Source: Peribacillus frigoritolerans (lineage in GTDB: Bacteria > Bacillota > Bacilli > Bacillales > DSM-1321). Taken from it: 64,000 nt of DNA. The stretch spans positions 3,398,501 through 3,462,500 of the forward strand of contig JAUPFL010000001.1 in the NCBI GenBank assembly GCA_030562215.1. The letters run 5' to 3'. Position 1 is the stretch's first letter, and each line of letters opens with the position of its first letter. Below the pieces are notes generated by a model. That model worked only from the letters and a program-made list of their open reading frames with translations, did not search any database and was not told where the DNA came from. Below, in pieces: positions 14,826 through 43,357 of this stretch. Position numbers and translations under genes: made by a program.

Positions 14826-14945
14826 TTATATACAAGTGTATTTTAAAAAAACGATTGAAGTCATTTCAATGCTTCGGACTTTTGATTATTTATAAAATTC
14901 AATGGGGTGAGACCGTTCTCTGTTACGGTACAACAAATGATGTAT

Positions 14946-15239: not shown

Positions 15240-15276
15240 ACAAAAGAGAACATCAGATTGATTTTCTTTTGTTTAA
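15236..15276. promoter_or_regulatory. Perfect 12-bp hairpin upstream of the desulfhydrase gene
   Basis: TTAAACAAAAGA pairs with TCTTTTGTTTAA across a 17-base loop. It overlaps the stop of the RidA remnant and ends about 30 bases before the next start. It may be a terminator, an attenuator or an operator. Confidence 0.5.
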
Positions 15277-15306
15277 TATACATAGAGGATACAGGAGGAG
15301 TAATAA

Positions 15307-16298: not shown

Positions 16299-16329
16299 AA
16301 TACTTATCATGCATGTGGCCTAATCCCAC

Positions 16330-17242
16330 TTTTTAAATATAGCAGGCGTGGTTATTAAGCAAAAACATATGTATCGAATAATTAATCCAATAGCTTTCAT
16401 GCTGGTTGCCAATGTCCCTAATTCCTGCTCTCTAATTGTACCGTAGGCCGGGCCGCTGGTATAAGCTTACAATGCTTCGGCAAGTGTGATGCACTCATAT
16501 GGATGCCAAACCGTTTTTCCGCTGCTGTCGATTCTCGTTACTGCACGATAGATTTGTTGAAGCGGATTAAGTATATCAATTGGAAAGTCCGTTCCAAATG
16601 CAAATTTTGTTCCGGCTTCTTGCAATGTAATAATCGAGAAAACATGCTTTTCTCGTTCAGTACCAATCCGTTCGGTGTAAACACCTCTTTCGGACATCGC
16701 AAAGTGATCTGGTTGCATTGAAGCAGTAACGCCCAACTTTTTGAAACGATGAACATCATCCGGGTGGATCACTTCAATGTGTTCGACGGAATGTCGTGAA
16801 TCTCGTTTACCATTTGTCTTTTGAGCTTCCTCATAGGCATCTAGAGCAAGGCGAACCGCTCCGTCGCCAATGGCATGAAAACGAATGCTAAAGCCTTCTT
16901 TATCTGCATCAACGACCCATTTTTTGATCGTTTCAGCAGGGAAAGACGTCTCACCGCGTGTATTAGGTTGATCCGCATAATGTTCGAGTAAATAAGCGGT
17001 ACGGGCTGTAATGACGCCATCGATAAATTGTTTTAGTCCTGACACACGAAGTTAATCCGATTGATACGTATCTCGTAATTGTTTGGCATGTTCAAGATTG
17101 CCATTAAAGCTGGCCATAAATGAATACGGGCTGTTAATTCTCCATTGTCTTCGAATTCTTTGAAAACATCTAGAGATTCGATTGTTTTTAAACCATGTAA
17201 GTCATTGACAGCAGTTACCCCTAAGCTTGCTGCGTGTGCCAA
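16330..17242 (-). pseudogene. Amidohydrolase family 3 (YtcJ-like) gene, truncated and broken
   Basis: Two pieces in different frames cover the middle of a metal-dependent amidohydrolase: MAHAASLGVTAVNDLHGL, then FRFHAIGDGAV-type sequence (residues FSIRFHAIGDGAVRLALDAY), SVEHIEVIHPDD and TKFAFGTDFPIDIL. The 5' third of the gene is missing. A frame break lies near 17040. An in-frame TAA at 16467-16469 interrupts LAEAL / AYTSGPAYGTIREQELG, after which similarity continues briefly and fades. The combination of truncation, shift and nonsense codon marks a true pseudogene. Confidence 0.75.
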
Positions 17243-17345
17243 GAACAGAGAAGATTGGAAAAATTAATAAGGAATTTGTAATGAGGGAACATATGTTTTA
17301 TAATGTACTTTAAGTAATTATCTATCGAAATAGGGGAGGCATTAT

Positions 17346-17849
17346 ATGTATATTTCAATTTCAGATTTTATTAAAGAATGGAATAAAGAAGCCATACTGA
17401 CTCAAAATGTCTTGGATAGTTTGACTGATGAATCCTTAGAACAACAAGTTTATCCAGGAGGTCGCACCTTAGGAAGAATTGTGTGGCATTTCACCACGAA
17501 TATTCCAGATTATCTAGCTCATTTCGGGTTAAAGATAGACCGGATAGAAAGTTCGGAAAACGTCCCATCTTCTGCCCGGGAAATTGCCATCACTTTTAAA
17601 AATGTAAGTTCTCACGCAGCCAAAATTATTGAACAACAATGGACAGACGAATCCCTGGAACAAATACAAGAAGCGTTTGGAAGACAGGAAACAAATGCTT
17701 CCATCCTTATGGGACTAATCAAGCATATTGTTCATCATCGCGGACAAGTTACGGTTCTGATGCGTCAAGCAGGAATAAAACCTTTTGGGGTTTATGGACC
17801 GCCAAAAGAAGATTGGATTCATTTAGGTGTGGAAACTCCACCGCTTTAA
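17346..17849 (+). CDS. DinB-family protein
   Basis: A 167-residue four-helix-bundle protein of the DinB/YfiT superfamily. The usual metal-binding His residues appear as VWHF near residue 48 and HIVHHRGQ near residues 122-129. Members include thiol-dependent S-transferases (bacillithiol-linked in Bacillus) and many of unknown function. The frame is intact, the start follows AGGGGAGG, and a terminator follows. It stands alone between a pseudogene and a sigma-factor gene, so context says little. Confidence 0.8.
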   Translation: MYISISDFIKEWNKEAILTQNVLDSLTDESLEQQVYPGGRTLGRIVWHFTTNIPDYLAHFGLKIDRIESSENVPSSAREIAITFKNVSSHAAKIIEQQWTDESLEQIQEAFGRQETNASILMGLIKHIVHHRGQVTVLMRQAGIKPFGVYGPPKEDWIHLGVETPPL

Positions 17850-17950
17850 TAACTTATGAATGCTTAAGGTATGATCTTCAACATACGGGGCCATTGGCGA
17901 ATAATTAAATTCCAGTTCTCCATTTTATAACTGAGTTAATAATATGTTTT

Positions 17951-17976
17951 AGCATCCATTGAAGGATGCTTTTTTA
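17951..17976 (+). terminator. Terminator of the DinB gene
   Basis: AGCATCC and GGATGCT form a 7-bp stem followed by TTTTTTAT. Confidence 0.8.
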
Positions 17977-18352
17977 TTTTGCCAAAAAGGGTTTAAATGT
18001 CACCATCCTTCATATTCCAATTAAAGCGAATGAAGTAAAACTTGAGATAGATCAACAATCCCGGCATAAAATTACCATTTGTCCCGTCTGTTCCTATTGA
18101 TTGGCTATGTTAAACCATTAGTGCAGAATAGTTCTTTACTATTATTATTTATAAGTAAATGACGAGATCTCTACCAAATCAATTAAAACTGACTGAAAGT
18201 GTCTAATTATAACTATAGTATTTTGTTGAAAAATGTCGTTATTTGCGAATATCATTATCGTCATTTCTGAGATATTATTATATTGAATTAACACATTGAA
18301 GTGATAATGCAACCTTATGTCGGTGCTCAATTAAGTGAGTGGGGGAAAATAA
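17977..18352. other. Intergenic stretch before the sigma-factor gene
   Basis: An A+T-rich region without a recognised gene. It should hold the promoter of the sigma-factor gene, but no pair of boxes is good enough to name. Confidence 0.4.
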
Positions 18353-19002
18353 ATGAGTGTAATCATCGAGAAGAAACGAATGGAAAACTATACTCATATG
18401 GAAGATGTAATGTTGGTTGGGAAAATCCATAATGGTGATGAGGAGGCACTGGACTTTTTAATCAAAAAATACAGATGTGTCGTTCAATCAAATGCTATGA
18501 AGTATTTTTTAACGGGTGGAGATAAGGAAGACGTCTTTCAGGAAGGGATGATTGGACTATATAAGGCCATTCGGGACTACAAAAATTGCAAAAAGTCGTC
18601 TTTCAGAACATTTGCGGAACTTTGCATTACAAGACAAATCATAACGGCTGTTAAGGCGGCCATTCGCCAAAAGCATTCTCCCTTAAATAATTATGTTTCA
18701 TTGTATATGCCTATCCATCAAGGGGAGTCAGAACAGGGGCTAATTGATCTAATTCCTGAACAGAGGCAAACTGACCCAGTCACGATTTTAATAAAATCAG
18801 AAGAAATTTGCGATATTGAGCTAATTTTAACCGAAGTCCTTAGTGAGTTGGAAAGCAAAGTTGTGGACTTGTACCTGGAAGGAAAAACTTATTTTGAAAT
18901 ATCAACGGAACTGAATGTTCAAAAAAGACGATCGATAATGCACTTCAGCGGGTAAAAAGGAAACTGGAGCGGCACTTCGAGTCCAGGAGGGTGGAAGAAT
19001 AA
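18353..19002 (+). CDS. Sigma-70 family factor, SigH-like (3' frame break)
   Basis: The protein has region 2 (EEALDFLIKKYRCVVQSNAM, DKEDVFQEGMIGLYKAIRDY) and a C-terminal region 4. The SigH group includes the transition-phase and sporulation sigma factor of Bacillus. The frame appears to end at 18955, but one extra A in the A6 run at 18921-18926 restores KKTIDNALQRVKRKLERHF, the recognition helix of region 4, ending at 19002 (about 216 residues, as in SigH). The sequence is divergent and the usual sigH neighbours (rpmG, secE, nusG) are absent, so it is probably a paralogue. Whether it is functional is unknown. Confidence 0.75.
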
Positions 19003-19191
19003 TAATAATAATTCTTTAAACTTGCGGTTATTATTATTTGAAAAATAACATCGAAACGATTAATAGAAGAGATGAAAGTACTTGTTAAAGCATTTTCCTG
19101 GTAATGGAGCTATTAGTGCAGAGCTATCCTAAAGGAAAATAAAATCCTTCTAGATAAATGCGCCTATGATAAATTCTCTGAGCATAAACAC

Positions 19192-19222
19192 AAAAAGCCC
19201 AACTGGAATACATGGGCTTTTT
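19192..19222 (-). terminator. Bidirectional terminator
   Basis: AAAAAGCCCA and TGGGCTTTTT form a 10-bp stem with U-runs on both strands, between the convergent sigma-factor and HesB-like genes. Confidence 0.8.
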
Positions 19223-19237
19223 ACTATGTTCATTTTT

Positions 19238-19552
19238 TTAATTCACTCTATTCAATTGGAGATTATATCTTAATGTTTCATCTTCTGAATATAATTTGTA
19301 CCCAAGTCCATCACTGTAATTAAGAAAGACTTTTTCTGGAAGATGCTTTTTAGACTCACTTGAAATTAATACGGGGACCCCATCGATTATGAATCTCTCA
19401 TCATCTTCGTTCTTATTATCAATTTTCAATTCATGTTCCACATAAATCGAACAGCTCCCAACATAAATGGCTTCGATACGAACACCTTCATTCTCTTTAT
19501 AATTCACTTTTAATAGTTGTTCAAGCGCTGCTTCTTTAATTTCAATATTCAT
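19238..19552 (-). CDS. HesB/IscA-like (YqkB-type) iron-sulfur biosynthesis family protein
   Basis: A 104-residue protein of the FeS_biosyn domain family. It lacks the three conserved cysteines of true A-type carriers and has only one Cys (VGSCSIYVEHE), as in the Bacillus YqkB/YneR subgroup. An Fe-S carrier role is therefore doubtful and the function is unknown. It is monocistronic and intact, with a convergent terminator at its 3' end. Confidence 0.7.
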   Translation of the reverse strand: MNIEIKEAALEQLLKVNYKENEGVRIEAIYVGSCSIYVEHELKIDNKNEDDERFIIDGVPVLISSESKKHLPEKVFLNYSDGLGYKLYSEDETLRYNLQLNRVN

Positions 19553-19914
19553 AAAACCGCTCCCATATTATTTTTTATCTATACAATCCTCTATTTATTC
19601 GTATACCCCATTGTTTATAAGTTAATGTGTTAGACCTTTCCTAGGAAAAAATAAAGTTTCCAATGATTAAGGTTCTGTGTTATGAATCACAGTTTGGCGC
19701 AGAGGAAAAGGCCACCATTTTGCTTTTCGACCCTTATGATTAACTCCTTATGTTCAAAGTTGCAAATTGTATTTTACATTGACAACAGTATCTAATAATA
19801 TCCGACTAACTCTAATCTGTGTCCTGGTTTTCCAATGGTGATTAATATCCAAGGGGATATACATGGAAGAGATGGAATGTAAAATTATCACATTTTTAAA
19901 GCAAATTAACAATG
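19553..19914. other. Intergenic stretch upstream of the metallophore promoter
   Basis: No gene recognised. The right end leads into the metallophore promoter. Confidence 0.45.
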
Positions 19915-19942
19915 TTGACACTTTCCAACATTATGCTATAAT
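19915..19942 (+). promoter_or_regulatory. Promoter of the cnt metallophore operon
   Basis: TTGACA at 19915-19920 and TATAAT at 19937-19942 are both perfect, 16 bases apart, with an extended TGC before the -10. Transcription should start near 19949. Confidence 0.75.
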
Positions 19943-19960
19943 TCATTCTGTAATTGCAAA

Positions 19961-19975
19961 TCGTAATCATTACTA
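19961..19975. promoter_or_regulatory. Zur box (7-1-7) of the cnt operon
   Basis: TCGTAATCATTACTA matches the Bacillus Zur palindrome TCGTAATnATTACGA at 13 of 14 defined positions and is flanked by AAA and TTT. It lies just after the expected start of transcription, so zinc-loaded Zur would block initiation or early elongation. Confidence 0.75.
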
Positions 19976-20039
19976 TTTGCGTCCGATAATGACTTTTGAA
20001 GAAAGGAAACAAAAAATATAAGAGTAGAGGGTAGTTGAG

Positions 20040-20873
20040 ATGATCCAGGAAATTGATTTTATAAAATTTAATCCAACACAAAATATGACAGTCCTTGTTA
20101 AAACTAAATATCCAGTTGAAAGGTATAAGCATGTTGCTTCCAAAATAATGTCATATGACAATGTACACGCTGAACAAGTAGGATTCATAGAAAAACCGAA
20201 AAATAATAAAGCTGTTGCACATTTACATATGGCCGGAGGTGAGTTTTGTGGAAATGCTTGTATGGCATTGGCAGCTTTTATTGCGTCTGAAAAAGGACTA
20301 AAGCAAAATGAGATGACAGAAATTTTATTAGAAGTTTCAGGTACAGATCAATTAATAGTGGGTCAAGTGAAAAGAAATATAGATGAATATTACTGCCAAG
20401 TAACTATGCCTACCCCAAAAAAGATAGAACAGAGAAAAATTGAATTTGAAGGCAGTAATTTGAATTTAATCATAGTGAGATATCAGGAGTTCATTCATAT
20501 TGTGATTGAAGTGGAGGAATTTGATAAGTCAATAAGGGAAAAAGCAGAATTATTAGCAAAGTTGCTGGGAGTAACTTTAGGTGCTAACTTGATCGGCATT
20601 TTATTATATAAAGCGAAGTCCGATGAATTGGCTCCCCTCATTTATGTCCCACATTTAGATACTTTGATTTGGGAAAGGGGGTGTGGATCAGGTACAGCTT
20701 CCTTAGGAGCGTATCTTGCATGGAAGAATAAAGGAGAGGTCGTTGCTAAAATCAGGCAGCCAGGTGGGACTATTAATGTAAAAGCTAGCTGTTATGACGA
20801 AGAGTTGGAGTGTCTTAAAATTGAAGGGTCTGTTGGAATAGTGGCACAAGGTAAAGCTTTTATAGATGTTTAA
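20040..20873 (+). CDS. cntK: Histidine racemase for opine metallophore synthesis (CntK-like)
   Basis: A 277-residue protein of the diaminopimelate-epimerase fold. The two catalytic cysteines are Cys70 (GGEFCGNACMALAA) and Cys215 (ERGCGSGTASLGAYLA), as in DapF and staphylopine CntK. It converts L-histidine to D-histidine for the transferase encoded next. The next two genes match CntL and CntM in order, which separates it from a housekeeping DapF. The intact ATG frame follows GAGGGTAGTTGAG, 65 bases after the Zur box. Confidence 0.9.
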   Translation: MIQEIDFIKFNPTQNMTVLVKTKYPVERYKHVASKIMSYDNVHAEQVGFIEKPKNNKAVAHLHMAGGEFCGNACMALAAFIASEKGLKQNEMTEILLEVSGTDQLIVGQVKRNIDEYYCQVTMPTPKKIEQRKIEFEGSNLNLIIVRYQEFIHIVIEVEEFDKSIREKAELLAKLLGVTLGANLIGILLYKAKSDELAPLIYVPHLDTLIWERGCGSGTASLGAYLAWKNKGEVVAKIRQPGGTINVKASCYDEELECLKIEGSVGIVAQGKAFIDV

Positions 20874-20896
20874 CTATTATATATTATTGGAGTGGA

Positions 20897-21733
20897 ATGA
20901 ATGTGTTAAAAACAAATACTTTGCAAGAAGATTTGAATCAATTTTCAGTAAGATTTAACGATTTTGCAGCAAAATATGACCATACCATGAATCACTGTCC
21001 GGAGTTTGAGGTTCTGATAGATGATTATTCAAAATTCATAATAAGTGAGAGGAATAAAGAAGCTTGGGAACAACTAGTACAACATGAATCCAGGGACTTC
21101 TATCAACTAGTCGAGGATTTAAGAACGAAATCAGCACTTTGTGTGGCCATTATGGAGAAATATCGTGCTTTGAAGCTGCTAAATGGAACTACTGAGAGTA
21201 CCAATTATTTTAAGAATATAGAATCATGTATTGAAAATGAATTTGGCCAATTTCGAATTACTTCAGAATCAAAGGTATTATTGGTGGGGTCAGGCTCATT
21301 TCCGATGACACCTTTATTAATTGCTAAGCGAACGGGAGCAGAGGTTATTGGCATAGATATTGATGATGAGGCTATTGAACTTGGACGAAAAGTTGTGGAT
21401 GAATTGGGTGGGGACTTAAATATAAAATTAGAGAAAAAAGAAGTGGAAAATATTGAGTATGCAAAAGAATTAACCCATATCATTTTTAGTTCAACTGTAG
21501 AAGCTAAATATGACATACTTGGTCAAATACATCCATTGACAAATGAAAATGTTGTAGTGGCTATGAGATACGGTAATCAGCTGAAATCTTTATTTAATTA
21601 TCCTATGAGAGAGGTGGATGCAGAAAAGTGGAGGATGGTTGACAATATATTACGTCCAGATCATGTGTTTGATATCGCATTGTATAAAAAGCATAGCTTA
21701 CTTGTTAAAGAGGAAGGGAGATTTCATGAGTGA
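20897..21733 (+). CDS. cntL: D-histidine 2-aminobutanoyltransferase, nicotianamine-synthase-like (CntL-like)
   Basis: A 278-residue protein with a SAM-binding Rossmann core (VLLVGSGSFPMTPLL, then GAEVIGIDIDDEAIELG) after a helical N-terminal domain, as in bacterial nicotianamine-synthase relatives. CntL transfers one aminobutanoate unit from S-adenosylmethionine to D-histidine. It starts 23 bases after cntK and overlaps cntM by 8 bases, which suggests translational coupling. The frame is intact. Confidence 0.88.
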   Translation: MNVLKTNTLQEDLNQFSVRFNDFAAKYDHTMNHCPEFEVLIDDYSKFIISERNKEAWEQLVQHESRDFYQLVEDLRTKSALCVAIMEKYRALKLLNGTTESTNYFKNIESCIENEFGQFRITSESKVLLVGSGSFPMTPLLIAKRTGAEVIGIDIDDEAIELGRKVVDELGGDLNIKLEKKEVENIEYAKELTHIIFSSTVEAKYDILGQIHPLTNENVVVAMRYGNQLKSLFNYPMREVDAEKWRMVDNILRPDHVFDIALYKKHSLLVKEEGRFHE

Positions 21734-23036
21734 TTTTAAGCGAGTTTTAATTTTAGGTACCGGTCCTACATCCATCCAACTTGCAGTCTTTTTAAAAAAG
21801 CATTTAAATTGCTACGTGGGGATTGCCGGCAGAGACTCTGTTCGTTCAGAAACATTATTTAAGACCCTTAGGCAAAGTGACCATCTAATACGTGTAAGTG
21901 TTCAAAATGAAAAGCATAGAACCATGGAAGGTGAATGTTTCGTCAACGAAGTTTTTAGAGGTTATGAAACCATAAAGGGTGAATGGGATACGATCATATT
22001 CTCTGTAACAGCGGATGCCTATATTGAGGTACTGAAACAGTTGAGTGAGCAAATTTTAAAACAAGTAAAATGTATTGTTTTAATTTCTCCAACTTTTGGA
22101 TCAAACAGCTTGATAAGTTATTATTTGAACAAGTTTAATCTTGAGGCGGAAATTATTAGTTTTTCTACATATTTAGGTGATACACGATGGATGCTGGATG
22201 GACCGTCCAATCATGTTTTAACAACAGCAGTCAAGAAAAAAATTTTTATAGGATCTACCCACTTTCCATCTGAAAATGTAGACAAACTATGTAAGGTATA
22301 TGAGCAGCTAGGAATTGAATTGAAAATTATGGGGACACCGTTTGAGGCAGAAACCAGGAATATTTCTTTATATGTACATCCACCGTTGTTCATGAATGAC
22401 TTTTCATTAGGTGCAATGTTTGGAGATATAGAAACGAAGAAATATGTTTATAAAATGTATCCTGAAGGACCCATTACACAATATTTAGTGCGGGATATGT
22501 TGTCTCAGTGGAAAGAAATTATGACTATTTTGGAAAAAGTAAATGTAAAGAAGATAAATTTACTTCAATTTATGACAGATGATAATTATCCTGTAAGGTT
22601 AGAAAGTTTATCGCGTCAAGATATAGAAAGCTTCTATCATTTAGATCCAATCCATCAAGAATATTTACTGTATATACGTTATACCTCATTGCTGATCGAC
22701 CCTTATTCAGAACCAGATGAGGAAGGAAGATATTTTGATTTTTCTGCGGTTCCAATCAGAAGAGTGTTTGTCAACAGAGAAGGTTATTTGGATATTCCAA
22801 GAATGCCAAAGGAAGATTATTATCGCACCAAAATTATACAGGGAATTGCAAAGTATTTAGATTTGAAATGTCCAATAATAGATAAGTTTATTGAAAAGTA
22901 TGAGAGTAAACTCGAAGAAGTAGCTCAATCCCGGAAAGGCGAAATGTTGTCTCATGCATTTACCGTTCAAAGTTTTGATGAAGATGTGAATATGATATGC
23001 GATGAGATAGGGAAAATAATAGCAACAAAGATGTAG
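21726..23036 (+). CDS. cntM: Opine metallophore dehydrogenase (CntM-like staphylopine synthase)
   Basis: About 436 residues. The N-terminal dinucleotide site is LGTGPTSIQLA (residues 10-20). Segments such as ISFSTYLGDTR, LYVHPPLFMNDFSLG and EDYYRT match staphylopine dehydrogenase as I remember it. The enzyme condenses the CntL product with a 2-keto acid and reduces it with NADPH. Asp152 in LGDTR corresponds to the position reported to favour pyruvate (Asp) over 2-ketoglutarate (Gly), so a staphylopine-like product is predicted. I chose the ATG at 21726, which overlaps cntL, over a longer upstream frame. Confidence 0.9.
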   Translation: MSDFKRVLILGTGPTSIQLAVFLKKHLNCYVGIAGRDSVRSETLFKTLRQSDHLIRVSVQNEKHRTMEGECFVNEVFRGYETIKGEWDTIIFSVTADAYIEVLKQLSEQILKQVKCIVLISPTFGSNSLISYYLNKFNLEAEIISFSTYLGDTRWMLDGPSNHVLTTAVKKKIFIGSTHFPSENVDKLCKVYEQLGIELKIMGTPFEAETRNISLYVHPPLFMNDFSLGAMFGDIETKKYVYKMYPEGPITQYLVRDMLSQWKEIMTILEKVNVKKINLLQFMTDDNYPVRLESLSRQDIESFYHLDPIHQEYLLYIRYTSLLIDPYSEPDEEGRYFDFSAVPIRRVFVNREGYLDIPRMPKEDYYRTKIIQGIAKYLDLKCPIIDKFIEKYESKLEEVAQSRKGEMLSHAFTVQSFDEDVNMICDEIGKIIATKM

Positions 23037-23080
23037 GGATAGTAAATGTCAAAATCCAATAAATAAATACACTATTTAAA

Positions 23081-23095
23081 TAGGAATAATTACGA
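23081..23095. promoter_or_regulatory. Second Zur-like box upstream of cntA
   Basis: TAGGAATAATTACGA has one perfect half (ATTACGA) and 5 of 7 matches in the other. It lies 65 bases before the binding-protein gene. A separate promoter here is not clear. Confidence 0.5.
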
Positions 23096-23159
23096 TTTGT
23101 GGAGGTGGTAATAAACAAACTGTAAACATATTTAGAAGGACTTAAAGGAGAGAACTACT

Positions 23160-24783
23160 ATGTTTAATAAAATATTCCAACTTGCAGCATTAGTTTTTTT
23201 TGTTTTATCCATACTGGCTGCTTGCTCTGAAAAATCAGGAATCACAGATAATAATAAAAAGGAAGTGGCTGACAACAAGCGAAAAGCAGAAATAGTTTAT
23301 GCATCAGCCAAAGACATTAATGATATGAATCCTCATCTTTACAAAGGTTCCATGCCAGCTCAAGGTATGGTATATGAATCATTAGTTGAAAACACGGCAG
23401 ATGGAATAAAGCCTTTACTTGCTGAGTCTTGGGAAGTTTCAGAAGATGGAAAAATATACACGTTTCATCTAAGAGAAAATGTGAAGTTCCATGATGGGGA
23501 ACCTTTTAACGCTGAAGCAGTAAAGAAAAACATAGAGGCTGTACAAAACAATTCAGAAAAGCATTCTTGGATTAAACTTTCCTCAAAAATAGAAAGTGTA
23601 AATGCTGTAGATGAGTATACAGTCAATTTGGTACTGTCAGAATCCTATTATCCAACACTGGTGGAATTATCTATGACAAGGCCTTATGTATTCATTTCGC
23701 CTAAAGATTTTAAGGATGGCGAAACAAAAGATGGTGTAGAAGGTTTTAACGGTACAGGACCATATACTCTGACTGAACATAAAACAGATGAGTTCGCAAT
23801 ATTTGAAGCAAATGAAAATTACTGGGGCGGCTCACCAAAAATAAAAAAATTACGTCTAAAGTTCTCCCAACAGGAGAAACGACCTTTTTAGCCTTAAAAA
23901 AGGAGAAGTAAACTTTGTTTTTACCGATGATCGCGGTGCAGATAGTCTTGATGTTGAAGCAATGAATGAATTAGTTGATTCAGGTGATTACCAACTTGTA
24001 AGAAGTGAACCGATGAATACGAAAATGATCGTTGCGAATAGCAGTAAAACTGATGAACCTGTTAGTGAAAAAGCTGTTCGTGAAGCCATTTGGCACTCCA
24101 TTGATAGGGAAACGATCACTAAGGATATTTTAAATGGCACTGAAACAACAGCTCATACCCTATTTTCCCCTAACGTCAATTATGCCAATGTCGATTTGAT
24201 TAAAAGGGGATACGATTTAGAGAAAGCGAAAGAGATTTTAGATGAAGCAGGGTGGGCATTAGAGGAAGGTGCTCAAGTTAGAACGAAAGCCGGTAACAAA
24301 TTAGTCATGAAACTTTATTATGACAGCAATTCTTCCAGTCAAAAAACCCAGGCTGAATTTATCCAGGCGTCATCAAAAGAAATCGGTATTGAGTTAGAGA
24401 TTATCGGTGAAGAGTCAACTTCAATTGCTAATAGAAGGTCAACGGGTGACTATGATTTATTATTCAATCAAACTTGGGGACTAGCTTATGATCCACAAAG
24501 TACAATTGCTGCTTTTACTTCCGAGGCTTCTTATCTACATACGACAAGTGGAATCCCCAAAGCAAATGAACTATATAAAAAAATTGACCAGGTTATGGTG
24601 TCTACTGACGAGGACACACGAAAATCGTTATATACGGATATTTTAAAAATTATACATGAAGAAGCAGTCTTTATTCCCATTTCCAATGGCAGTGTCACTG
24701 TTGTTGCTCCAAAAAATTTAAATGGCATATCCTTTAAACAAACACAATTTGAGTTGCCATTTGAGCAAATGTATTTTCAATAG
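23160..24783 (+). CDS. cntA: Metallophore ABC transporter substrate-binding lipoprotein (CntA-like), two frame breaks
   Basis: A family 5 extracellular solute-binding protein (peptide/nickel/opine type). The lipoprotein signal ends in LAAC, with the lipid-anchored Cys at residue 22. YASAKDINDMNPHLY and the C-terminal half follow the staphylopine-binding group. The frame is broken twice. One extra A at AAA 23858-23860 gives VLPTGETTFLALKKG, and one extra A at 23896-23901 gives EVNFVFTDDRGAD and joins the long second half, for about 541 residues. It would capture the metal-loaded opine outside the membrane. A stem-loop follows. Confidence 0.85.
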
Positions 24784-24784
24784 A

Positions 24785-24821
24785 AGCATAAATAAAAAGG
24801 GGCTTCCCTTTTATTTATGCT
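24785..24821 (+). terminator. Intra-operon stem-loop after cntA
   Basis: AGCATAAATAAAA...GGG pairs almost perfectly with CCCTTTTATTTATGCT. It has no following T-run. Such hairpins after binding-protein genes often stabilise the upstream mRNA so that the binding protein exceeds the permease. Confidence 0.6.
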
Positions 24822-24860
24822 AAAGTGCAAGTTTCATGTATTAATTGAAAGGAGACTTTT

Positions 24861-25793
24861 ATGGGAAGATACATCCTTAATAGAGTTTTCATAGCCACCC
24901 CATTACTTTTGATCATTTCATTTTTGACGTTTGTCTTAATCAATCTTTCTCCTTTAGATCCAGCCGAAGTGGTGTTACAAGCACAAGGTGTTCCAAAAAT
25001 AACAGATGAACTAATTGTTCAAACGAAAGAAGAGTTAGGAATGGATCAACCATTTATCATACGGTACTTTGATTGGCTTATTGCTTCCTTACAGCTGGAT
25101 TTTGGAGATTCATACGTGACAGGAAAACCTGTTTGGTCTTTGATAGCTCCAGCTTTTCTCAATTCGTTCAAGTTAACTTTCGTTTCATCTGTTGTCATTA
25201 TTATTATGTCCATACTAATAGGTGTTATTTGCGCCTTGAAGGAAGGAAAGCTAGCGGATAAATCGGTTAGGGGAATCTCGTTTTTCCTAACGGCAATGCC
25301 ATCCTACTGGTTGGCATCCATTCTGATTTGGTATGTTTCTGTTAAGTTGAATTTATTACCAACCAGTGGAATGGATTCGTACAAGAGTTATATTTTGCCG
25401 GTTATTATCATCACGGTAAGTTATGCTGGAATTTATTTTCGGAATGTTAGATCTTCGATGATAAGCAATTTAAATGAAGACTATGTTCTATATTGTAGGG
25501 CTTGCGGTATACCAGAAAAGAAAATTACCGTGCACATTCTAAGGAATTCATTGCAAGTTTCCATTTCGATATTTGGCATGTCCATCCCGATCATATTAGG
25601 AAGTACAGTGGTCATTGAAAACGTTTTTGCATGGCCGGGTTTAGGAAGTCTGAGTGTTAAAGCAATCCTAAGCAGGGATTTCCCTATTATCCAAGCTTAC
25701 GTTCTTATATTAGCAGCCGCCTTTGTATTGTTTAATACAGTTTCCGATATTATAAATGCAGCAATGAATCCTAGGATAAGGAATGATCTCTAG
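24861..25793 (+). CDS. cntB: Metallophore ABC transporter permease 1 (CntB-like)
   Basis: A 310-residue intact permease of the DppB/NikB type with about six membrane segments. The cytoplasmic loop YCRACGIPEKKITVHILRNS is the EAA-like motif that contacts the ATPase. It starts after GAAAGGAGAC and ends directly against the cntC start codon (TAGATG). With CntC it forms the membrane channel for the metal-opine complex. Confidence 0.88.
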   Translation: MGRYILNRVFIATPLLLIISFLTFVLINLSPLDPAEVVLQAQGVPKITDELIVQTKEELGMDQPFIIRYFDWLIASLQLDFGDSYVTGKPVWSLIAPAFLNSFKLTFVSSVVIIIMSILIGVICALKEGKLADKSVRGISFFLTAMPSYWLASILIWYVSVKLNLLPTSGMDSYKSYILPVIIITVSYAGIYFRNVRSSMISNLNEDYVLYCRACGIPEKKITVHILRNSLQVSISIFGMSIPIILGSTVVIENVFAWPGLGSLSVKAILSRDFPIIQAYVLILAAAFVLFNTVSDIINAAMNPRIRNDL

Positions 25794-26710
25794 ATGAGAA
25801 TGTTAAATAATCTAATTAAAGATAAGTTAGCTATTGTATCTTTAATTGTCATTATTGCAATCATAATAGGTGGACTTTTTGCTCCACTAGTTGCGCCACA
25901 TGACCCGAATGAAATAAAAATGAGCCTTCGATATGCATCGCCATCGTGGGAGCATTTATTAGGCAATGATCATCTAGGGAGATGTATTTTATCCAGGATC
26001 ATATATGGTATTCGTCCCAGCGTTTTATGGGTTTTATTTGCATTGTGCATCTCTGTTTTGATTGGAGCGGTATTAGGGTTTCTAGCTGGATATTTTAAAG
26101 GAAAAGTAGATGCCTTTATTATGAGGATTTGTGACATTATGCTTTCTTTCCCAGGATACGTTATGACATTGGCCATTGTAAGTGTGTTAGGTGTAGGTCT
26201 GGAAAATATTTTGATTGCAAGTATTTTGGTGAAATGGGCATGGTTTGCTCGAGTAATCCGGACGTCTGTCATGAAGTATTCTGAATTAGAATATGTCAAG
26301 TTTTCCAAAGCATCCGGTATTAGTGACATGAAAATCATATATAAACACCTGGTTCCTGTTACATTTTCTGATATTGCGGTTATTTCAAGTAGCTCTATTG
26401 GTTCAATGATTTTGCAAATTTCAGGTTTTTCATTTCTCGGATTAGGGATCCAAGCCCCGAATGCTGAGTGGGGGATGATGCTAAATGAAGCAAGGGAAGT
26501 CATGTTTACAAGGCCAGAGTTAATGTTAGCACCCGGTTTAGCCATTGTTATTGTCGTATCGGCATTTAATTTTTCTCTGATGCCCTCCAAGTAGCTTTGG
26601 ATCCAAAGTTAATGACTTTTAATAATAATATCGTGAAAAAACCAAGGACCTCTAAAATCAAATTTCAAAAAAAGAGGTGGCAAATAAATTATGAATATAT
26701 TAGAAGTTAA
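25794..26710 (+). CDS. cntC: Metallophore ABC transporter permease 2 (CntC-like), 3' frame break
   Basis: A DppC/NikC-type permease. It has an N-terminal membrane helix, then LLGNDHLGRCILSRIIYGIR, and the EAA-like loop KFSKASGISDMKIIYKHLVP. The frame closes early. One extra T in the T5 run at 26570-26574 restores FFSDALQVALDPKL, the normal ending of this family, and runs to 26710 (about 305 residues). The restored end overlaps the cntD start by 20 bases, as expected for a compact operon. Confidence 0.82.
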
Positions 26711-27496
26711 AAATTTGAACATACGTGATGTTAAAACTGATAATGATATCGTCCACAATGGTACATTCACCTTAAAGGAAGGAAGCTGTCTTGCAATTGT
26801 CGGGGAAAGTGGAAGTGGTAAGTCCATAACTTGCAGATCCATTATGAGATTGAATAAATCGTGGCTTCAACAATCAGGAGACATTCTATTTAAAGGAGAA
26901 AATTTAAATCTTCTTTCTGAAAAAGAAATGAGGAAAATGAGGGGTAAAAAACTTTGTATGATTCTACAAAATGGGATGAGCGCATTTGATCCTTCCTGTG
27001 TGATTGGTGTTCATTTAAAGGAAACGCTTGTTGAACATTTCGGTTGGAGTAATAAAGAAATCGAAGAAAAAATGAAAAATGCTATGGAAAGTGTCATGCT
27101 GAAAAATCCGATAGAGATTATGAACAAGCATCCACACCAGCTATCAGGTGGAATGTTGCAGCGGATTATGATTGCATTGGCATTGGTATTGGAACCCGAC
27201 ATTATTATCGCTGATGAACCAACAACAGCGCTAGATACAATCTCTCAATTTGAAGTTGTTGAACAATTGATTAAGTTAAGAGAAAAAATGGGCTCCTCGA
27301 TGATCTTTGTATCTCACGATTTAGGTGTTGTAAAGAAAATTGCAGATAATATTTTGGTCATGAAGGATGGAAAAATCATTGAAAGAGGAAATATACAAGC
27401 CATTTTTTCAGATGCACAACATGAATATACCAAATATTTAGTTTCCGCTAAAGAAGAGCTGAGTAATCAGTTTAAAAAAATATGGGGAGGAGTTAA
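26691..27496 (+). CDS. cntD: Metallophore ABC transporter ATPase 1 (CntD-like)
   Basis: A DppD-type ATPase: Walker A GESGSGKS near residue 42, signature LSGGMLQR, Walker [15 protein letters not shown] and switch His in SHDLG. As read, the frame runs on into the next ATPase, giving an apparent CntD-CntF fusion. One extra A in the A7 run at 27474-27480 ends this gene as KKNMGRS at 27496, about 268 residues, the expected size. I prefer separate genes, because GGGGAGG and a TTG start for the next gene then appear in the right place. Confidence 0.8.
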
Positions 27497-27497
27497 C

Positions 27498-28245
27498 TTG
27501 CTGAAAGTTGATTCTATCGACAAATTCTATAAAAAAGGTGGAATGTTTTCTAAAGAAAGACAACAAGTATTGAAGAATGTTAGTTTTGAATGCAGGAATG
27601 GTGAATGTCTCGGAATCATCGGAGAAAGTGGAAGTGGAAAATCCACATTAGGTCGCTTGATACTAGGAATTGAAAAACCTGATCAAGGGACTGTTTTATT
27701 TGAGGGTAAGAATGTGATGGATCGTAGAGTCAGGTTAGGTGCCATCAGTGCCGTTTTTCAGGACTATAAATCTTCCATTAATCCTTTTTTACGGTTGAAG
27801 AAGCCATTTCGGAGCCGTTAAAAGGTAAAAAAAAAGACCCAAAAAAGAAATTCACTATAAAATTGATATTTTATTAAATCAAGTTGGTTTAAATCCTTCC
27901 TATAGAAAAAAGCACCCTCATGAGTTATCAGGAGGAGAGGTTCAGAGGGTGTGCATTGCAAGGGCAATATCCACAGAGCCTAAATGTATTCTATTAGATG
28001 AAGCAATCAGTTCTCTAGATATTCCTGTCCAAATACAAGTGCTGAATTTATTAAAAGAAATAAAAGAAGTCTACACTATAAGCTACATTTTTATAACTCA
28101 TGACCTCCAGGCTGCGGCCTATATTTGCGACAGAGTTATTATTTTTAGGAATGGCAGAATTGAAGAAATGGTCAATATTGAAAAATTAAAAGACGTTCAA
28201 TCGGAATATGCAAGAAAATTATTACAGAAGTTAATAACAGTTTAA
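27498..28245 (+). CDS. cntF: Metallophore ABC transporter ATPase 2 (CntF-like), two frame breaks
   Basis: A DppF-type ATPase starting at TTG after GGGGAGG. Walker A is GESGSGKST, the Q-loop is AVFQDYKSSINPF, the signature is ELSGGEVQR and Walker B is CILLDEAISSLD. One extra T in 27785-27790 gives TVEEAISEPLKGKK, and one extra A in 27841-27846 gives KKEIHYKIDILLNQVGL. The reconstruction is about 249 residues, as in the staphylococcal protein. It energises uptake of the metal-opine complex together with CntD. Confidence 0.8.
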
Positions 28246-28288
28246 TACTATGTAAGATTAATTGCATTGTTAGAAAGGAGAAAATACG

Positions 28289-29465
28289 GTGAGTGGAGCG
28301 ATGGCATGGCCTTTTTACGTTTGTATCTGTTGGTTCTATTTTATTTTAGTGCGAATGCTATACTGAACGTTATTATTCCTTTACAAGGGGAAGCATTGGG
28401 AGCTAACAATACCACGATTGGCTTGATTATGGGGGCATATTTATTTACGACTATGTTCTTTCGACCATGGGCAGGTCATATTATTCAGAAGCATGGACCC
28501 ATTAAAGTGTTACGATTTATTCTTATTCTCAATGGTTTTGCTTTAATACTATATACAATTACCGGATTAGGAGGATATCTAGTTGCCCGTATGTTGCAGG
28601 GCGTATCGACAGCCTTTTTTCAATGGCATTACAGATAGGCATCATTGATGCATTACCAGAGGAGGATCGCTCTCAGGGCATTTCACTATATTCTTTATTT
28701 TCTTATGTACCAGGTATTATTGGCCCATTGCTAGCATTAGGCATTTGGCAAAGGGATATGGACTATTTTACAGTGGCAATGATAGCAATTGCCATCTTTA
28801 CAGGATTATTTGGCTATAGTGCAAAGATTGACAAAGCAGAGAGTCAGCCTGTTACAAATAATGCTGAACAGGGAGTAAGCATTTTTAAATCCTTCAGTGA
28901 GTTAGTAAAAAATCCGTTCTTATTTAAATGCAGCGTTTTAATGTTGGCTGCATCTATTATATTTGGGGCAAGTACAACTTTTATACCACTGTACGCTGTG
29001 CAATTAAAGGATGGAAATGCTGGAATTTATCTCATGATTCAGGCAGGTACCGTTGTTTTGGCCCGTTTTGCTTGGAGGAAAAAGATTCCCTCAGACGGAA
29101 AATGGCATTCTTTTTTTATTATGGGAACCATGCTTCTTTTAGCAATAGCCGCTCAATGTGTAAGTTTTTCTATGAACGGCGGAGCTATCTATTTTTATGT
29201 TGGCGCTATTTTAATGGGAATTGCGCAAGCACTCATTTATCCAACATTAACAACATATTTAAGTTTTGTCTTACCTAAGATGAATCGAAATGTGTTACTT
29301 GGTTTATTTATTGCGATGGCAGATTTAGGAGTCTCTTTAGGTAGCGTGATTATGGGCCCACTAGCTGATTTTTACTCATATTCAGCGATGTATAGGGTTT
29401 GTGCCATTTTAGGTGTGGCGATGCTCTTTTTTGCCTATGATCGTCGAAAAGTATTTGTTGGATAA
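28289..29465 (+). CDS. cntE: MFS exporter of the opine metallophore (CntE-like), two frame breaks
   Basis: A twelve-helix MFS protein. The GTG at 28289 follows GAAAGGAG and reads VSGAMAWPF, matching the start of staphylococcal CntE. One extra T in 28312-28316 continues as LRLYLLVLFYFSANAILNV. A second in 28615-28620 gives ARMLQGVSTAFFSMALQIG. The rest, with IIDALPEEDRSQGISLYSL and TYLSFVLPKMNRNVLLGLF, is intact, for about 392 residues. CntE releases the new metallophore from the cell. It is the last gene of the locus, the same order as in S. aureus. Confidence 0.85.
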
Positions 29466-29578
29466 AGGTAATAGAAGGGGCGAGAGAACGGGAAATCTAT
29501 AAAAAGATTGAGGATAAACAGGTAAAACCAATTAGGTAAGAAAGAATCTAGGATTTACTCAGACTTCTTTTTAAGTAT

Positions 29579-29622
29579 AATAAAGCCGATGTTTCCTTAA
29601 CGCAGGAAATGCCGGCTTTATT
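29579..29622. terminator. Terminator-like inverted repeat after cntE
   Basis: AATAAAGCCG and CGGCTTTATT flank an inner GTTTCC/GGAAAT pairing, giving a long stem between the end of the cnt operon and the convergent LysR gene. Confidence 0.6.
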
Positions 29623-29784
29623 CTCGTAATTTGTTTAGCGCTAGTTTTCCGCGTTTTACAGAAGCAACCTGTTAAACAGCTTACTTCCGGATCATCCGCT
29701 TATGATTATTTAATAATATCACCAATAAGTTCCTAACATCATGTGCCTGTAACTTCATTCTTGGAATTGCATTCTTTGCAATGA

Positions 29785-30692
29785 TCATCCTATCGGCTTT
29801 GCTTTCATGGGCCATTTTTTGTTTAATTCAGTTATAAAAGTCTTGACATTCTTTTTACCTTTCATAATTGGGGAATAGACGTATGAAAGTGTCCTGTTAA
29901 AGGATTCATCTTTTACCTGAATAATAGAAAGGATTTTATTTTGTACATCCCTTTCAATTACACTTCGTGAAAGCAGGGCCAGCCCTGCGCCGTTTTTTAT
30001 AAGTGTTTCTTTAATTCCTTGATTACTGCTTATCGTGAGTATCGATTTAGTTTTCAATCCATTTGAACGTATGACATGGTTAAGGTATTCACGTGTACCA
30101 GATCCTACTTCCCTCGTTACCCATGCTTGGTCATGTAAATCAGTAATCTCCACTTCGTCTTTATTAGCGAGTTCATGAGTGTTAGAAGACACAATGAATA
30201 GCTCATCTTGCATGAATGGGTGAACAGAAAGCTCTTTTTCGTTAGTTTGACCTTCGATTAAACCAATATCCACCTTGTATAGCCGAACGGCTTGAACGAT
30301 TTCTTCCGTGTTCCCAATTACGACTTGAAGTTCAAGTTCAGGATAGTCCTCTTGAAGGTCGATGAGTAAAGAAGGAAGGATATACTCTCCTATTGTAAAA
30401 CTTGCACCTATCTTTAATTCGCCCTTGATGGACCTATCGTGTTCCTGTATGTCTTGTCTGGTCTGTTCATAGATTGTGATCATTTGCTTGGCCCGGTCGT
30501 AAAGAATTTCTCCCGTTAAAGTGACTTTTAAAAATTTGGGAGAACGGAGAAATAATTTGGTTTGGAACTCTTCTTCTAATTTTTAATATGTAAACTAACA
30601 CTTGGTTGCGACATAAGAAGAATTTCTGCTGTTTTTGTAAAATTCTTGACTTCCACAAGGGTCACAAATGTTTTTAAAGCATCATAGTACAT
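29785..30692 (-). CDS. cysL: LysR-family regulator, CysL-like (frame break)
   Basis: The start reads MYYDALKTFVTLVEVKNFTK with the LysR helix-turn-helix (SQPSVSLHIKKLEEEF). The break in the T5 run at 30580-30584 needs one extra base. The long second part is the periplasmic-binding-like effector domain, with KGELKIGASFTIGEYILP. The whole is about 302 residues. It is divergent from cysJI across 320 bases. In B. subtilis CysL (YwfK) activates cysJI, so this is a confident assignment by context. Confidence 0.82.
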
Positions 30693-31014
30693 AGAAATTT
30701 CCCCTTATTATTAATATTCTTAATAGTTATAATAAATTATATATATTTTACTAATGATATACCTTCCAGTAAAGTTTTAATGAGAAACTTATTTTAGGAA
30801 GAGTATAGGCTGGGGAAGGCTATTGTCCTTTTTATTTGTTGTGTGCTATGAACCTATATAACTGTATTTTAAATTTTTTTGCAGTTAAAACCGACTTGGT
30901 CTATAGGAGTAAACGAGTTAATTAATTTATGGTTCGAAATAAAATATTTAAACCCACTCGTTATACATAATAATCAACTAAGATAAGTTAATATCCCTTT
31001 GTGAGGTGGAAATC
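30693..31014. promoter_or_regulatory. Divergent cysL / cysJ control region
   Basis: An A+T-rich gap between divergent LysR and sulfite-reductase genes, where LysR-type operators normally lie. I cannot point to one palindrome with confidence. Confidence 0.45.
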
Positions 31015-32827
31015 GTGCAACTTCAGGTAAGTAACAGTCCCTTTAATCAAGAGCAAGCAGAGCTCCTTAACAGCCTACTGCCAAGCTTGACAGAAACACA
31101 AAAATTTGGTTGAGCGGTTATCTGACTGCATCTTTGTCAGTATCCAACACAAGTTCAGCCGACGTCCCGGTATTGGAAGCTCAAAGCGGCGGGAAGACAA
31201 TATCAAAAGAGGTGACCATCCTGTATGGTTCACAGACGGGAAATGCTCAAGGGCTGGCAGAAAAAGCGGCGAGTAAGCTTGAGGGTAATGGCTTTCAGGT
31301 TACCATTTCATCCATGAGTGACTTTAAAGTCAACAATTTGAAAAAATCGAAAATCTTCTGATTGCCGTTAGCACGCATGGAGAAGGTGATCCGCCGGATA
31401 ATACATTGTCTTTCCATGAGTACCTTCATGGCAGGAGGGCACCAAGCCTTGAGGGACTCCGCTTTTCGGTATTGGCGCTAGGGGACAGCTCATATGAGTT
31501 TTTCTGTGAAACGGGAAAACAATTCGATAAACGCTTGGAGGAACTTGGGGGGACACGGTTATTTCCGCGAATGGACTGTGACCTTGATTATGATGAGCCT
31601 GCTTCCGAATGGCTGGAAGGAGTCATTTCCAGTTTAAGTGAAGGGCAAGTCAATTCTGCTGCTGCAGTTCCCGCAGCAAAAGCTTCTGTAGGTGACCAAA
31701 CTTATTCGAGAACAAATCCGTTTAAAGCGGAAGTGTTGGAGAATATAAATTTGAATGGCCGTGGCTCCAATAAAGAGACACATCATCTTGAGTTATCTCT
31801 TGAAGGCTCAGGTCTTACATTCGAACCAGGTGACAGCCTTGGTATTTATCCGAAAAACGATTCGGATTTAGTGGATATGCTTCTTATGGAACTAGATTGG
31901 GACCCTGAAGAAACCATAAAGGTCAATAAGCAGGGAGAACTTCGTCAGCTTAGGGAATCGCTCATCTCCGACTTTGAAATAACGGTATTGACAAAATCGC
32001 TCATTGAACAAGCGGCACTGCTTTCAGGTAACGAGGATTTAAAGGAGCTTGTAAAGCCTGGTAATGAAGAAAGATTAAAAGAATATCGAGAAGGCCGTGA
32101 TTTGCTTGATTTTGTCCGCGATTTTGGTTCATGGGGTGAATCGGCGCAAGAGTTCGTATCAATTCTCCGGAAAATGCCAGCCCGTCTATATTCGATTGCG
32201 AGTAGCTTATCCGCATATCCGGATGAAGTGCATTTGACAATCGGAGCTGTCCGGTATGAAAGTCACGGTCGAGAAAGAAAAGGTGTCTGCTCGATTTTAT
32301 GTGCGGACAGATTACAGCCAGGGGACTTGCTGCCCATTTACATTCAGCATAACCAGAACTTTAAGCAGCCAAAGAACCCAGACACGCCAATTATCATGGT
32401 TGGACCAGGAACGGGCATTGCTCCGTTTAGATCCTTTATCCAGGATCGCGAAGAATCGGAAGCGAAAGGGAAAACGTGGCTCTTTTTCGGCGATCAGCAT
32501 TTCGTGACGGATTTCCTATATCAAACTGAATGGCAAAAGTGGTTGGAAACAGGTGTACTTACGAAAATGGATGTTGCCTTTTCACGCGATACTGATGAAA
32601 AAGTGTATGTTCAAAACCGGATGCGCGAGCAAAGTAAGGAATTATACGAATGGATTCAAGAAGGGGCAGCTATATACATTTGCGGTGACGAGAAAAACAT
32701 GGCACATGATGTCCATAATACGCTTATTGAGATCATTGAGAAAGAAGGCAATATGAGCCATGCTAATGCGCAAGCTTATCTTGAAGAAATGCAACAGAAT
32801 AAACGCTATCAACGTGATGTGTACTGA
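31015..32827 (+). CDS. cysJ: Sulfite reductase (NADPH) flavoprotein alpha component, two frame breaks
   Basis: GTG start after TGAGGTGG, reading VQLQVSNSPFNQEQAELLNS as in Bacillus CysJ. One extra A at 31100-31104 gives QKIWLSGYLTA, and one at 31341-31346 gives KKIENLLIAVSTHGEGDPPD. Domains are an FMN flavodoxin (YGSQTGNAQGLAEK; STHGEGDPPDN), an FAD-binding domain (RLYSIASS) and an NADP site (GPGTGIAPFRSF, then YICGDEKNMAHDV), about 605 residues. It passes electrons from NADPH to CysI for assimilatory sulfite reduction. Two breaks in such a conserved gene argue for read errors. Confidence 0.9.
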
Positions 32828-32854
32828 AATTTGAAGAAAAGGAGAGTTAACAAC

Positions 32855-34572
32855 ATGGTGAACCCACTATTGAAAGCACCAGCAGGCCCGCCTAGTGATG
32901 TTGAGCAAATTAAAGAAAGAAGCGATTATTTGCGAGGTACACTCGGAAAAGTGATGCAGGATCGGATTAGCGCCGGTATTCCGGATGATGACAATCGACT
33001 GATGAAACACCACGGCAGCTATTTGCAGGATGATCGGGATCTACGTAATGAGCGTCAAAAACAAAAACTGGAGCCTGCCTATCAGTTTATGTTACGTGTC
33101 CGCATGGCCGGCGGGGTTGCACAGCCTTCTCAATGGCTTGTTATGGATGACCTTGCTCAGAAATACGGTAACGGAACCTTGAAATTGACAACAAGGCAGA
33201 CGTTTCAAATGCATGGTATTTTAAAATGGAATATGAAAAAACCATTCAGGAAATCCATGCTTCCATGTTGGACACAATCGCTGCATGCGGAGATGTAAAC
33301 CGGAACGTAATGTGCAATTCGATTCCATTTCAATCTGAAATCCATTCCGAAGTATATGAATGGTCGAAAAAATTGAGTGATTATCTATTGCCGCGCACAA
33401 GGGCGTACCATGAAATCTGGCTGGATGAAGAAAAAGTTGTCGGTACTCCGGAATTGGAGGAAGTCGAACCAATGTACGGAAAGCTTTATTTGCCAAGGAA
33501 GTTTAAAATAGGCATTGCCGTCCCTCCCTCCAATGACATTGATGTCTACTCCCAGGATCTTGGCTTCATTGCAATTGTTGAAAATGGAAAACTTGTTGGT
33601 TTTAATGTGGCGATCGGCGGCGGTATGGGAATGACCCACGGTGACAAGGCGACATATCCTCAACTAGCCAAGGTAATCGGCTTTTGCCAGCCAGACAAAA
33701 TACTGGATGTGGCTGAGAAAATCATTATGATCCAGCGCGATTACGGAAACCGATCCGTACGGAAAAATGCCCGGTTCAAGTATACGGTTGACAGGCTTGG
33801 GCTCGAACCGGTAAAAGCTGAACTGGAAAATCGTCTAGGGTGGAAGCTGGAGGAAGCGAGAACTTATCATTTTGATAATAATGGCGACCGCTATGGATGG
33901 GTAAAAGGCATGCGGGATAAATGGCATTTTACACTATTTGTCGAGGGTGGCCGAATTGCCGATATCAATGATTACAAGCTGATGACCGGTTTGCGCGAAA
34001 TCGCAAAGATCCATACTGGTGATTTCCGTTTAACTGCCAATCAAAACCTGATCATTGCAGATGTGACAAGCCAGAAAAAGAAAAAGATCATCGAATTGCT
34101 TGAAACATACGGTTTGACGGATGGTGCACATCATTCGGCGCTCAGACGCAGCTCGATTGCATGCGTGGCGCTTCCAACATGCGGGTTGGCAATGGCCGAA
34201 GCTGAGCGTTATTTACCGGTTTTGATTGATAAAATCGAGGCCATCGTTGATGAAAACGGCCTGAGGAACGAAGAAATCACGATACGCATGACTGGTTGCC
34301 CGAATGGCTGTGCCCGGCATGCACTTGGTGAAATTGGTTTTATCGGTAAGGGACCTGGTAAATATAATATGTATCTTGGTGCTGCTTTCGACGGAAGCCG
34401 ATTAAGTAAAATGTACCGTGAAAACATCGGTGAAGAAGAGATATTAAACGAGTTGCGTGTACTTCTTTCACGTTATGCAAAAGAACGTCAGCAAGGAGAG
34501 CATTTCGGGGACTTTGTCATCAATGCTGGCATTGTTAAAGAAGTGACGGATGGTATGAATTTTCATGATTGA
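32855..34572 (+). CDS. cysI: Sulfite reductase hemoprotein beta component (frame break)
   Basis: About 572 residues. The ATG follows AAAGGAGAG, 28 bases after cysJ. The siroheme/[4Fe-4S] cysteines appear as [15 protein letters not shown] and [10 protein letters not shown]. One extra A in the A6 run at 33236-33241 joins ILKWNMKK to [20 protein letters not shown]. It reduces sulfite to sulfide with electrons from CysJ, feeding cysteine synthesis. Confidence 0.92.
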
Positions 34573-39522: not shown

Positions 39523-39724
39523 CTCTGCACTAAAGCTTATTATCCTAGCATTTGCAATTTAATTACAAATTAACCATTTTGGATGATAATGTTGCTCGTT
39601 TCATAGATGAATTTCATAAAAAATCCTTGGTTTAAAAGTCTGTCCCATATCCTGTTCGCATAAAAAAATTGAAACAAGAGGAAACTGAAAAAATAAAAAC
39701 CCATTTAACCAAAAGGAGTTCACC

Positions 39725-43341: not shown

Positions 43342-43357
43342 AGTGATTGGTTATAAG

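Follow-up and report, generated by a model that had tools for sequence, protein, structure and literature searches.

The cnt locus and its products

In a 64,000-nucleotide stretch of the Peribacillus frigoritolerans genome (assembly GCA_030562215.1, contig JAUPFL010000001.1, positions 3,398,501 to 3,462,500 of the forward strand; hereinafter the window), we uncovered nine consecutive genes which, judging by their sequences, would equip this soil spore-former in full to produce a staphylopine-like metal scavenger, secrete it and take it up again. The 16S gene of the genome shares 99.9% identity over its full length with a copy carried by a P. frigoritolerans plasmid and 99.7% with one from a P. 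simplex plasmid, which places the organism in Peribacillus. In the list of open reading frames (ORFs) the genes cntK-L-M-A-B-C-D-F-E occupy window positions 20040-29465, all on the forward strand, and run from a racemase to an MFS exporter, just as had been stated by an earlier prediction made from the letters of the sequence (hereinafter the original prediction); this is also the cntKLMABCDFE order of Staphylococcus aureus given in passages of PMC7594338. The cntL gene lies directly upstream of that for the CntM dehydrogenase, with importer and exporter genes found within six ORFs. Against Rfam, no part of the window reached a gathering score.

The three predicted biosynthetic genes stand at the head of the series. 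The product of cntK (20040..20873), a putative histidine racemase, matches NF033599 with 227.8 bits (cut-off 300); its nearest solved chain is 6l4l, deposited as a diaminopimelate epimerase, and it carries both Cys70 and Cys215, the catalytic pair to which the original prediction had pointed. The next gene, cntL (20897..21733), codes for a nicotianamine-synthase-like aminobutanoyltransferase, whose best match is NF033601 (313.7 bits, cut-off 350) and whose nearest solved chains are those of the D-histidine 2-aminobutanoyltransferase (8zx0/7c9m). Its end (21733) overlaps the start of cntM (21726..23036), for which the longest ORF begins at 21618 and the MSDFKR start lies at 21726. CntM is predicted to be an opine dehydrogenase of the staphylopine type: it matches PF10100 with 689 bits (E ~2e-207, cut-off 25) and NF033600 with 547 bits (cut-off 675), and its selector residue is Asp152 in the motif YLGD, equivalent to Asp150 of S. 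aureus CntM.

The remaining genes code for transport proteins. The opine-metal binding lipoprotein CntA (23160..24783) is spread over two frames in the assembly (ORFs 23160-23891 and 23962-24783), and its pieces, searched apart, match NF047575 with 396 and 494 bits, the cut-off of 800 being set for the whole protein; a lipobox, LSILAAC, is seen by eye, and the nearest chain of the C-terminal piece in the Protein Data Bank is 5yh5. It is followed by two permeases, CntB (24861..25793; Opp1B model NF045469, 499 bits, above the cut-off of 380) and CntC (25794..26594; NF047573, 470 bits, above the cut-off of 440), the latter with its C-terminus out of frame past ~26573. Of the two ATPases, CntD (26691..27491) matches NF047578 (502 bits, above the cut-off of 380) and is 82% identical to that of a same-genus relative, while CntF (27498..28245) again occupies two frames, with pieces 60% and 82% identical to the relative's CntF; the first match of its C-terminal piece is NikE. 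The predicted MFS exporter CntE (28267..29465) is likewise in two frames: the piece at 28623-29465 matches NF047574 with 463 bits (above the cut-off of 235) and the N-terminal piece matches PF07690. Thus, besides CntB with its match to Opp1B, both pieces of CntA as well as CntC, CntD and CntE match NCBIfam models named for opines.

The profile searches that the original prediction had called for hence yielded family matches for all nine proteins, and these are far beyond chance expectation; however, CntK, CntL and CntM remain under their equivalog cut-offs, and we make no claim of equivalog-level membership for them. The CntK cut-off is passed by no genome of our family or order draws. Since the three enzymes miss their NCBIfam cut-offs, whereas CntB, CntC, CntD and the larger CntE piece pass theirs, we claim an opine system firmly from these matches and offer the staphylopine subtype as a prediction.

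Zur-type operators

A promoter-like site of the sigma-70 type (TTGACA-16-TATAAT, with a TG before the -10 element) is found on the forward strand at 19915..19942, and its first base is the very coordinate at which the original prediction had begun the locus. It is the sole site with 12/12 consensus matches among the 47 promoter-like sites in 18900-30600, where shuffled sequences gave a mean of 46.1 sites. Sixteen bases past its end, and 82 bp before cntK, sits a Zur-type operator (19958..19978; AAATCGTAATCATTACTATTT), which has a single mismatch to AAATCGTAATNATTACGATTT, the Zur-box consensus of Bacillus subtilis. A second Zur-type operator, with two mismatches, lies between cntM and cntA (23078..23098), again 82 bp before the gene that follows. 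These are the sole 21-base sites at up to four mismatches on the forward strand of the window, and the operator before the operon, with its 7-1-7 architecture, belongs to a genome-wide set: in the whole genome (5.38 Mb in three contigs), the pattern at up to three mismatches gives 13 sites, including both cnt operators, as against none for a reversed control. Four proteins neighboring other sites of the set were scanned, and proved to be ZnuA, two CobW-family GTPases and an ArsP_1 permease. The excess over the control and the company of ZnuA and CobW genes make zinc control the best reading, and the gene set is probably zinc-controlled; the weight of this case is carried by the one- and two-mismatch 21-base sites, the genome-wide control and the position of the sites. 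The original prediction, which had proposed that this spore-former makes its own opine zincophore, did not mention these operators, and they strengthen that proposal, which stands as the best-supported interpretation.

The box before cntK recurs in all four of the same-genus loci compared, with 1-2 mismatches and at 84-86 bp before the gene. In G041 the cnt cluster is followed by genes for ZnuA, an ABC-3 permease and a FUR-family protein; at locus L013 of a same-genus relative, the genes after cnt (13278-16642) are of these three kinds plus one for an ABC ATPase and, together with more Zur-type boxes, make up a zinc island. We also considered control by Fur and set it aside: neither the region ahead of cntK nor that separating cntM from cntA has a Fur-type box at up to three mismatches (the closest is at 22577, within cntM), and the count of Fur-type sites in the window is at chance (10 against 11.4 expected). 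In S. aureus, promoters before cntK and cntA are described with both Fur and Zur boxes in passages of PMC7594338, and zinc abundance is given as the dominant factor for cnt expression in passages of PMC5666155.

Predicted product

According to the rules set out in parts of PMC7438024, the presence of the racemase indicates that D-histidine is used, whereas Asp at position 150 of CntM goes with pyruvate and Ala with alpha-ketoglutarate. The selector is Asp in 19 and Ala in 18 of the 37 CntM loci that we compared (the window's included), and this split tracks two clades in the CntM tree. In a draw of 397 Bacillales genomes, PF10100 is matched over its cut-off in 35. All 13 of those with a CntM scoring above 600 bits are of the Asp type, and in each of them CntK is matched at more than 200 bits (every CntK match in this draw falls below that model's cut-off), as opposed to a racemase in none of the 22 other CntM genomes, a count that takes two draws of 397 as identical, as their shared handles suggest; the 17 of these 22 that were fetched all have Ala. 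Two genomes of the draw have a CntK match but no CntM, at 134.6 and 19.8 bits; the match at G390:C5:112997-113740 (134.6 bits, below the cut-off) is perhaps an orphan racemase. At the sequence level the racemase and selector rules thus go together in Bacillales. As the window couples Asp152 to a racemase bearing both cysteines, and has Asp where the bacillopaline enzyme has Ala, staphylopine itself is the product that we predict, and we consider it quite probably the right one.

Distribution and origin of the cluster

The genes lie in an apparently inserted block of about 9.9 kb (19631..29536), whose limits shift with the relative used, within 19630-19663 on the left and 29537-29780 on the right. 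We looked for its upstream and downstream flanks in 36 genomes and fetched the site from six of them (G013, G026, G027, G028, G030 and G031). All six have an empty site at which the flanks meet with 1-62 bases between the matched pieces; in two of them, G026 and G028, a cnt cluster is present at another place in the genome. The block includes about 0.37 kb before cntK, which matches the region upstream of cntK in three relatives, and its GC content is 35.5% against 39.2% for the window. Presence in the genus is patchy: among its 36 genomes in a 43-genome family set, PF10100 is found in 7 and CntK in 5, so that five have the racemase type and two another type. In the CntM tree the window's sequence stands outside the same-genus clade and pairs instead with two genomes from a different family (f11; support 94/85, not starred). 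We therefore regard it as likely that the block was acquired by transfer as one piece of DNA, a case drawn mainly from the empty site and the patchy presence because the tree test brings no firm rejection. None of the repeats listed joins both edges of the block, and no integrase or transposase was seen by eye among the listed ORFs of at least 80 amino acids in 17000-33000. A scan of our contig collection recovered four loci, all from Paenibacillus. Just upstream of the block, 18353-18955 codes for a sigma factor resembling SigH (NF006148, 247 bits), for which a second DNA match, 65% identical, is present elsewhere in the genome.

Frame breaks and alternative interpretations

Drawing on gene content and order, both operators, the residue at the selector position, the vacant site in relatives and the purifying selection described below, we consider it very probable that this cntKLMABCDFE operon was gained horizontally, is repressed by zinc, and serves to make and use a zincophore of the staphylopine type; this degree of confidence attaches to an opine zincophore system of that type and not to the exact product. 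Several observations weigh against it. The scores of the three biosynthetic enzymes all fall short, as given above. The 15-base Zur pattern at up to three mismatches occurs in the window at chance frequency (3 sites against 4.2 expected); the box before cntA is found at up to five mismatches, a level at which stray Zur-type sites turn up too, in only two of the four same-genus loci and in none of the four from Paenibacillus; in all four of the latter the site before cntK has 4-5 mismatches and lies 74-78 bp upstream; and the genome has three FUR-family genes. As to transfer, a single clade for the same-genus Asp-type sequences is not firmly rejected (p-AU 0.126 with five rows, 0.052 with four). 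Finally, in this assembly cntA, cntC, cntF and cntE are out of frame, with one break each, which confirms what the original prediction had seen and had treated as potentially fatal to its proposal.

Were these breaks real, the cluster would be a decaying pseudogene array in which opine production and import have been lost; with four of the nine genes affected, and a patchy presence against an otherwise empty site that points to easy loss, such an account has some appeal. Nevertheless, we judged it less likely after a census of breaks over the window, and now hold it to be highly improbable. Its reference was a same-genus genome, G031, from which two 20 kb stretches flanking the same site on either side were set against the window; of the 30 G031 ORFs of at least 110 amino acids, 29 passed the limits of 80% identity and 60% coverage and one was dropped. 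Twelve of the 29 compared window genes are split over frames, including cysJ, cysI and ger genes, which is indistinguishable from four of nine in cnt (Fisher p = 1.0); the broken genes outside cnt lie at 31006-34572, 35807-44846, 57216-58258, 5506-8017 and 15307-16295. The estimated completeness of this genome is 87.5% as against 99-100% for the 42 others of the family set, and an additional importer on another contig, discussed below, is broken alike. In the four same-genus relatives of the racemase type, one of which (L013) supplied the nine reference proteins, every one of these is covered to 95% or more by a single frame; the same is true of four Paenibacillus loci and a Priestia plasmid, except for cntC of L002 (94%), L004 (84%) and L005 (94%). 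From the census, the completeness and the near full-length clusters of relatives, the breaks look like a property of this assembly, which carries many indel-like breaks, and the objection is thereby largely defused. Moreover, comparison of pieces of eight cnt genes (cntF omitted) with the four same-genus relatives gave dN of 0.04-0.20 and dS of 0.56-1.76 for every piece, those of cntA and cntE included; by these values all the compared pieces are under purifying selection, though this mostly reflects older history. The other alternatives concern the product and the metal. The product might be another opine, such as bacillopaline (from D-histidine and alpha-ketoglutarate), or one with a variant keto acid or amino acid, given that the enzymes are under the equivalog cut-offs, that position 150 tunes the choice of keto acid without fully fixing it and that bacillopaline itself comes from a racemase-containing Paenibacillus cluster (both from parts of PMC7438024). 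Yet the selector here is Asp, the state reported there for users of pyruvate, and the nearest solved chain of CntM is that of staphylopine dehydrogenase (6h31), with 437 bits, as compared with the 246 and 218 bits reached by the pseudopaline and yersinopine enzymes; hence, we rate another opine as unlikely. That the system mainly serves nickel or cobalt, or a broad range of metals, is suggested by several importer subunits that match NCBIfam models named for nickel or nickel/cobalt, and staphylopine binds several metals according to passages of PMC7594338. However, this notion derives from family names, and we set it aside as very unlikely: both operators are of the Zur type and have counterparts across the genome, some of them beside genes for ZnuA and CobW-family proteins, and Fur-type boxes at up to three mismatches are absent from both positions.

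Proposed mechanism and significance

For the zincophore operon that we favor, we infer what it makes, how it responds to zinc, and how transport and function proceed in this strain as follows. A drop in zinc would release Zur from the operators before cntK and cntA. CntK would then convert L-histidine to D-histidine, to which CntL would add an aminobutanoate unit from S-adenosylmethionine; CntM would join the product of CntL with pyruvate, using NADPH, to yield staphylopine. This would be exported by CntE, and its metal complex, captured by the lipoprotein CntA, would be imported through CntBCDF. A spore-former common in soil and in association with plants would thereby join the bearers of a metallophore pathway known chiefly from a human pathogen, with the specific prediction that staphylopine is made and is induced by zinc chelation. 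While the kind of system is already known, the value of the case lies in the prediction of the molecule made and of how the cluster moves; and since the cluster is patchily distributed, its site is empty in relatives and one genus holds two chemotypes, there is here a test bed for zinc competition among bacteria in soil.

A second opine type and a second importer in the genus

Two same-genus genomes (G009 and G033) have, in place of the above configuration, a CntL-CntM-EamA-OppABCDF cluster with Zur-type boxes and an Ala selector (at 6665-15060 of L016, and at 7092-15443 of L017 counted on the reverse strand); a CntK match is found in neither, and the EamA exporter was tested against Pfam in G009 only. 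None of the 36 genus genomes combines the racemase type with the racemase-less type, and the window's genome has a single CntM by PF10100. On its contig 2, there is a further importer of the Opp5 type (L075 2557-7376), preceded by a Zur box and with no CntM in reach, whose substrate-binding protein piece matches NF045468 with 421 bits. Subunit for subunit it is 38-55% identical to the importer of the racemase-less type and 26-43% to CntABCDF. Opp5 importers may also serve other nickel or histidine complexes, and we take this one as a lead, and no more, for the uptake of foreign opines. A tentative and rather doubtful extension would see the Peribacillus zincophore as an exchangeable cassette in two chemotypes, one with racemase and Asp (predicted staphylopine) and one without racemase but with Ala and EamA (predicted pseudopaline), which never occur together in the 36 genomes; the Zur-controlled Opp5-type importer of this strain could then take up the rival's opine. 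To our knowledge, pseudopaline is known only from Gram-negatives.

Comparison with known systems

The question of novelty has two sides. The original prediction had supposed such systems to be little studied in this group. In favor of this, open-licence literature gave no paper in which Peribacillus occurs together with staphylopine or with "opine metallophore", and passages of the literature on Peribacillus, metallophores and zinc do not report an opine cluster in the genus. On the other hand, a 2020 survey (PMC7438024, in its relevant parts) lists Bacillaceae among the predicted makers of opine zincophores, placing them in the largest CntM cluster, cluster 1, and puts bacilli in cluster 5, and sections of PMC12256460 describe Priestia sp. 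GS2 as having a bacillopaline-type cluster, while for P. frigoritolerans GR2 they name koranimine. Bacillaceae as predicted opine-zincophore makers are thus known already; what is new here are the Zur-type operators, the product prediction, the break census and the empty site.

Against this background, the S. aureus staphylopine system shares the racemase, the Asp selector and, as depicted in passages of PMC7594338, the order of the nine genes and the regulatory sites before cntK and cntA; it differs in that both Fur and Zur boxes are reported there as against only Zur-type sites here, and in that the enzymes of the present system stay under the NCBIfam equivalog cut-offs. The bacillopaline system of Paenibacillus mucilaginosus is comparable in its racemase, MFS exporter and cluster-1 Opp-type importer, but its CntM, compared by description (parts of PMC7438024), has an Ala selector and uses alpha-ketoglutarate, unlike the Asp-bearing enzyme of the window. 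In the same parts of that survey, cluster 1 of Morey and Kehl-Fie, comprising Bacillaceae, Paenibacillaceae and Actinobacteria, resembles our locus by description in its Bacillales members, the racemase before cntL, the MFS exporter, the Opp importer and a predominantly Asp selector; Peribacillus is unnamed in those parts. The racemase-less clusters of the genus share CntL, CntM, an Opp-type importer and Zur-type boxes, and are set apart by the want of CntK, the Ala selector, the EamA exporter and a CntM only 38% identical; by description, they probably represent cluster 5 of the same authors. Plasmid pA of Priestia sp. J2 (NZ_CP086209) carries all nine genes, arranged alike and almost full-length, but this is a 148 kb plasmid and its CntM is 58% identical. 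There, the cnt genes (L059 9108-19590) lie beside genes for type B L31 and S14 ribosomal proteins, a kind of paralogue that is often zinc-responsive.

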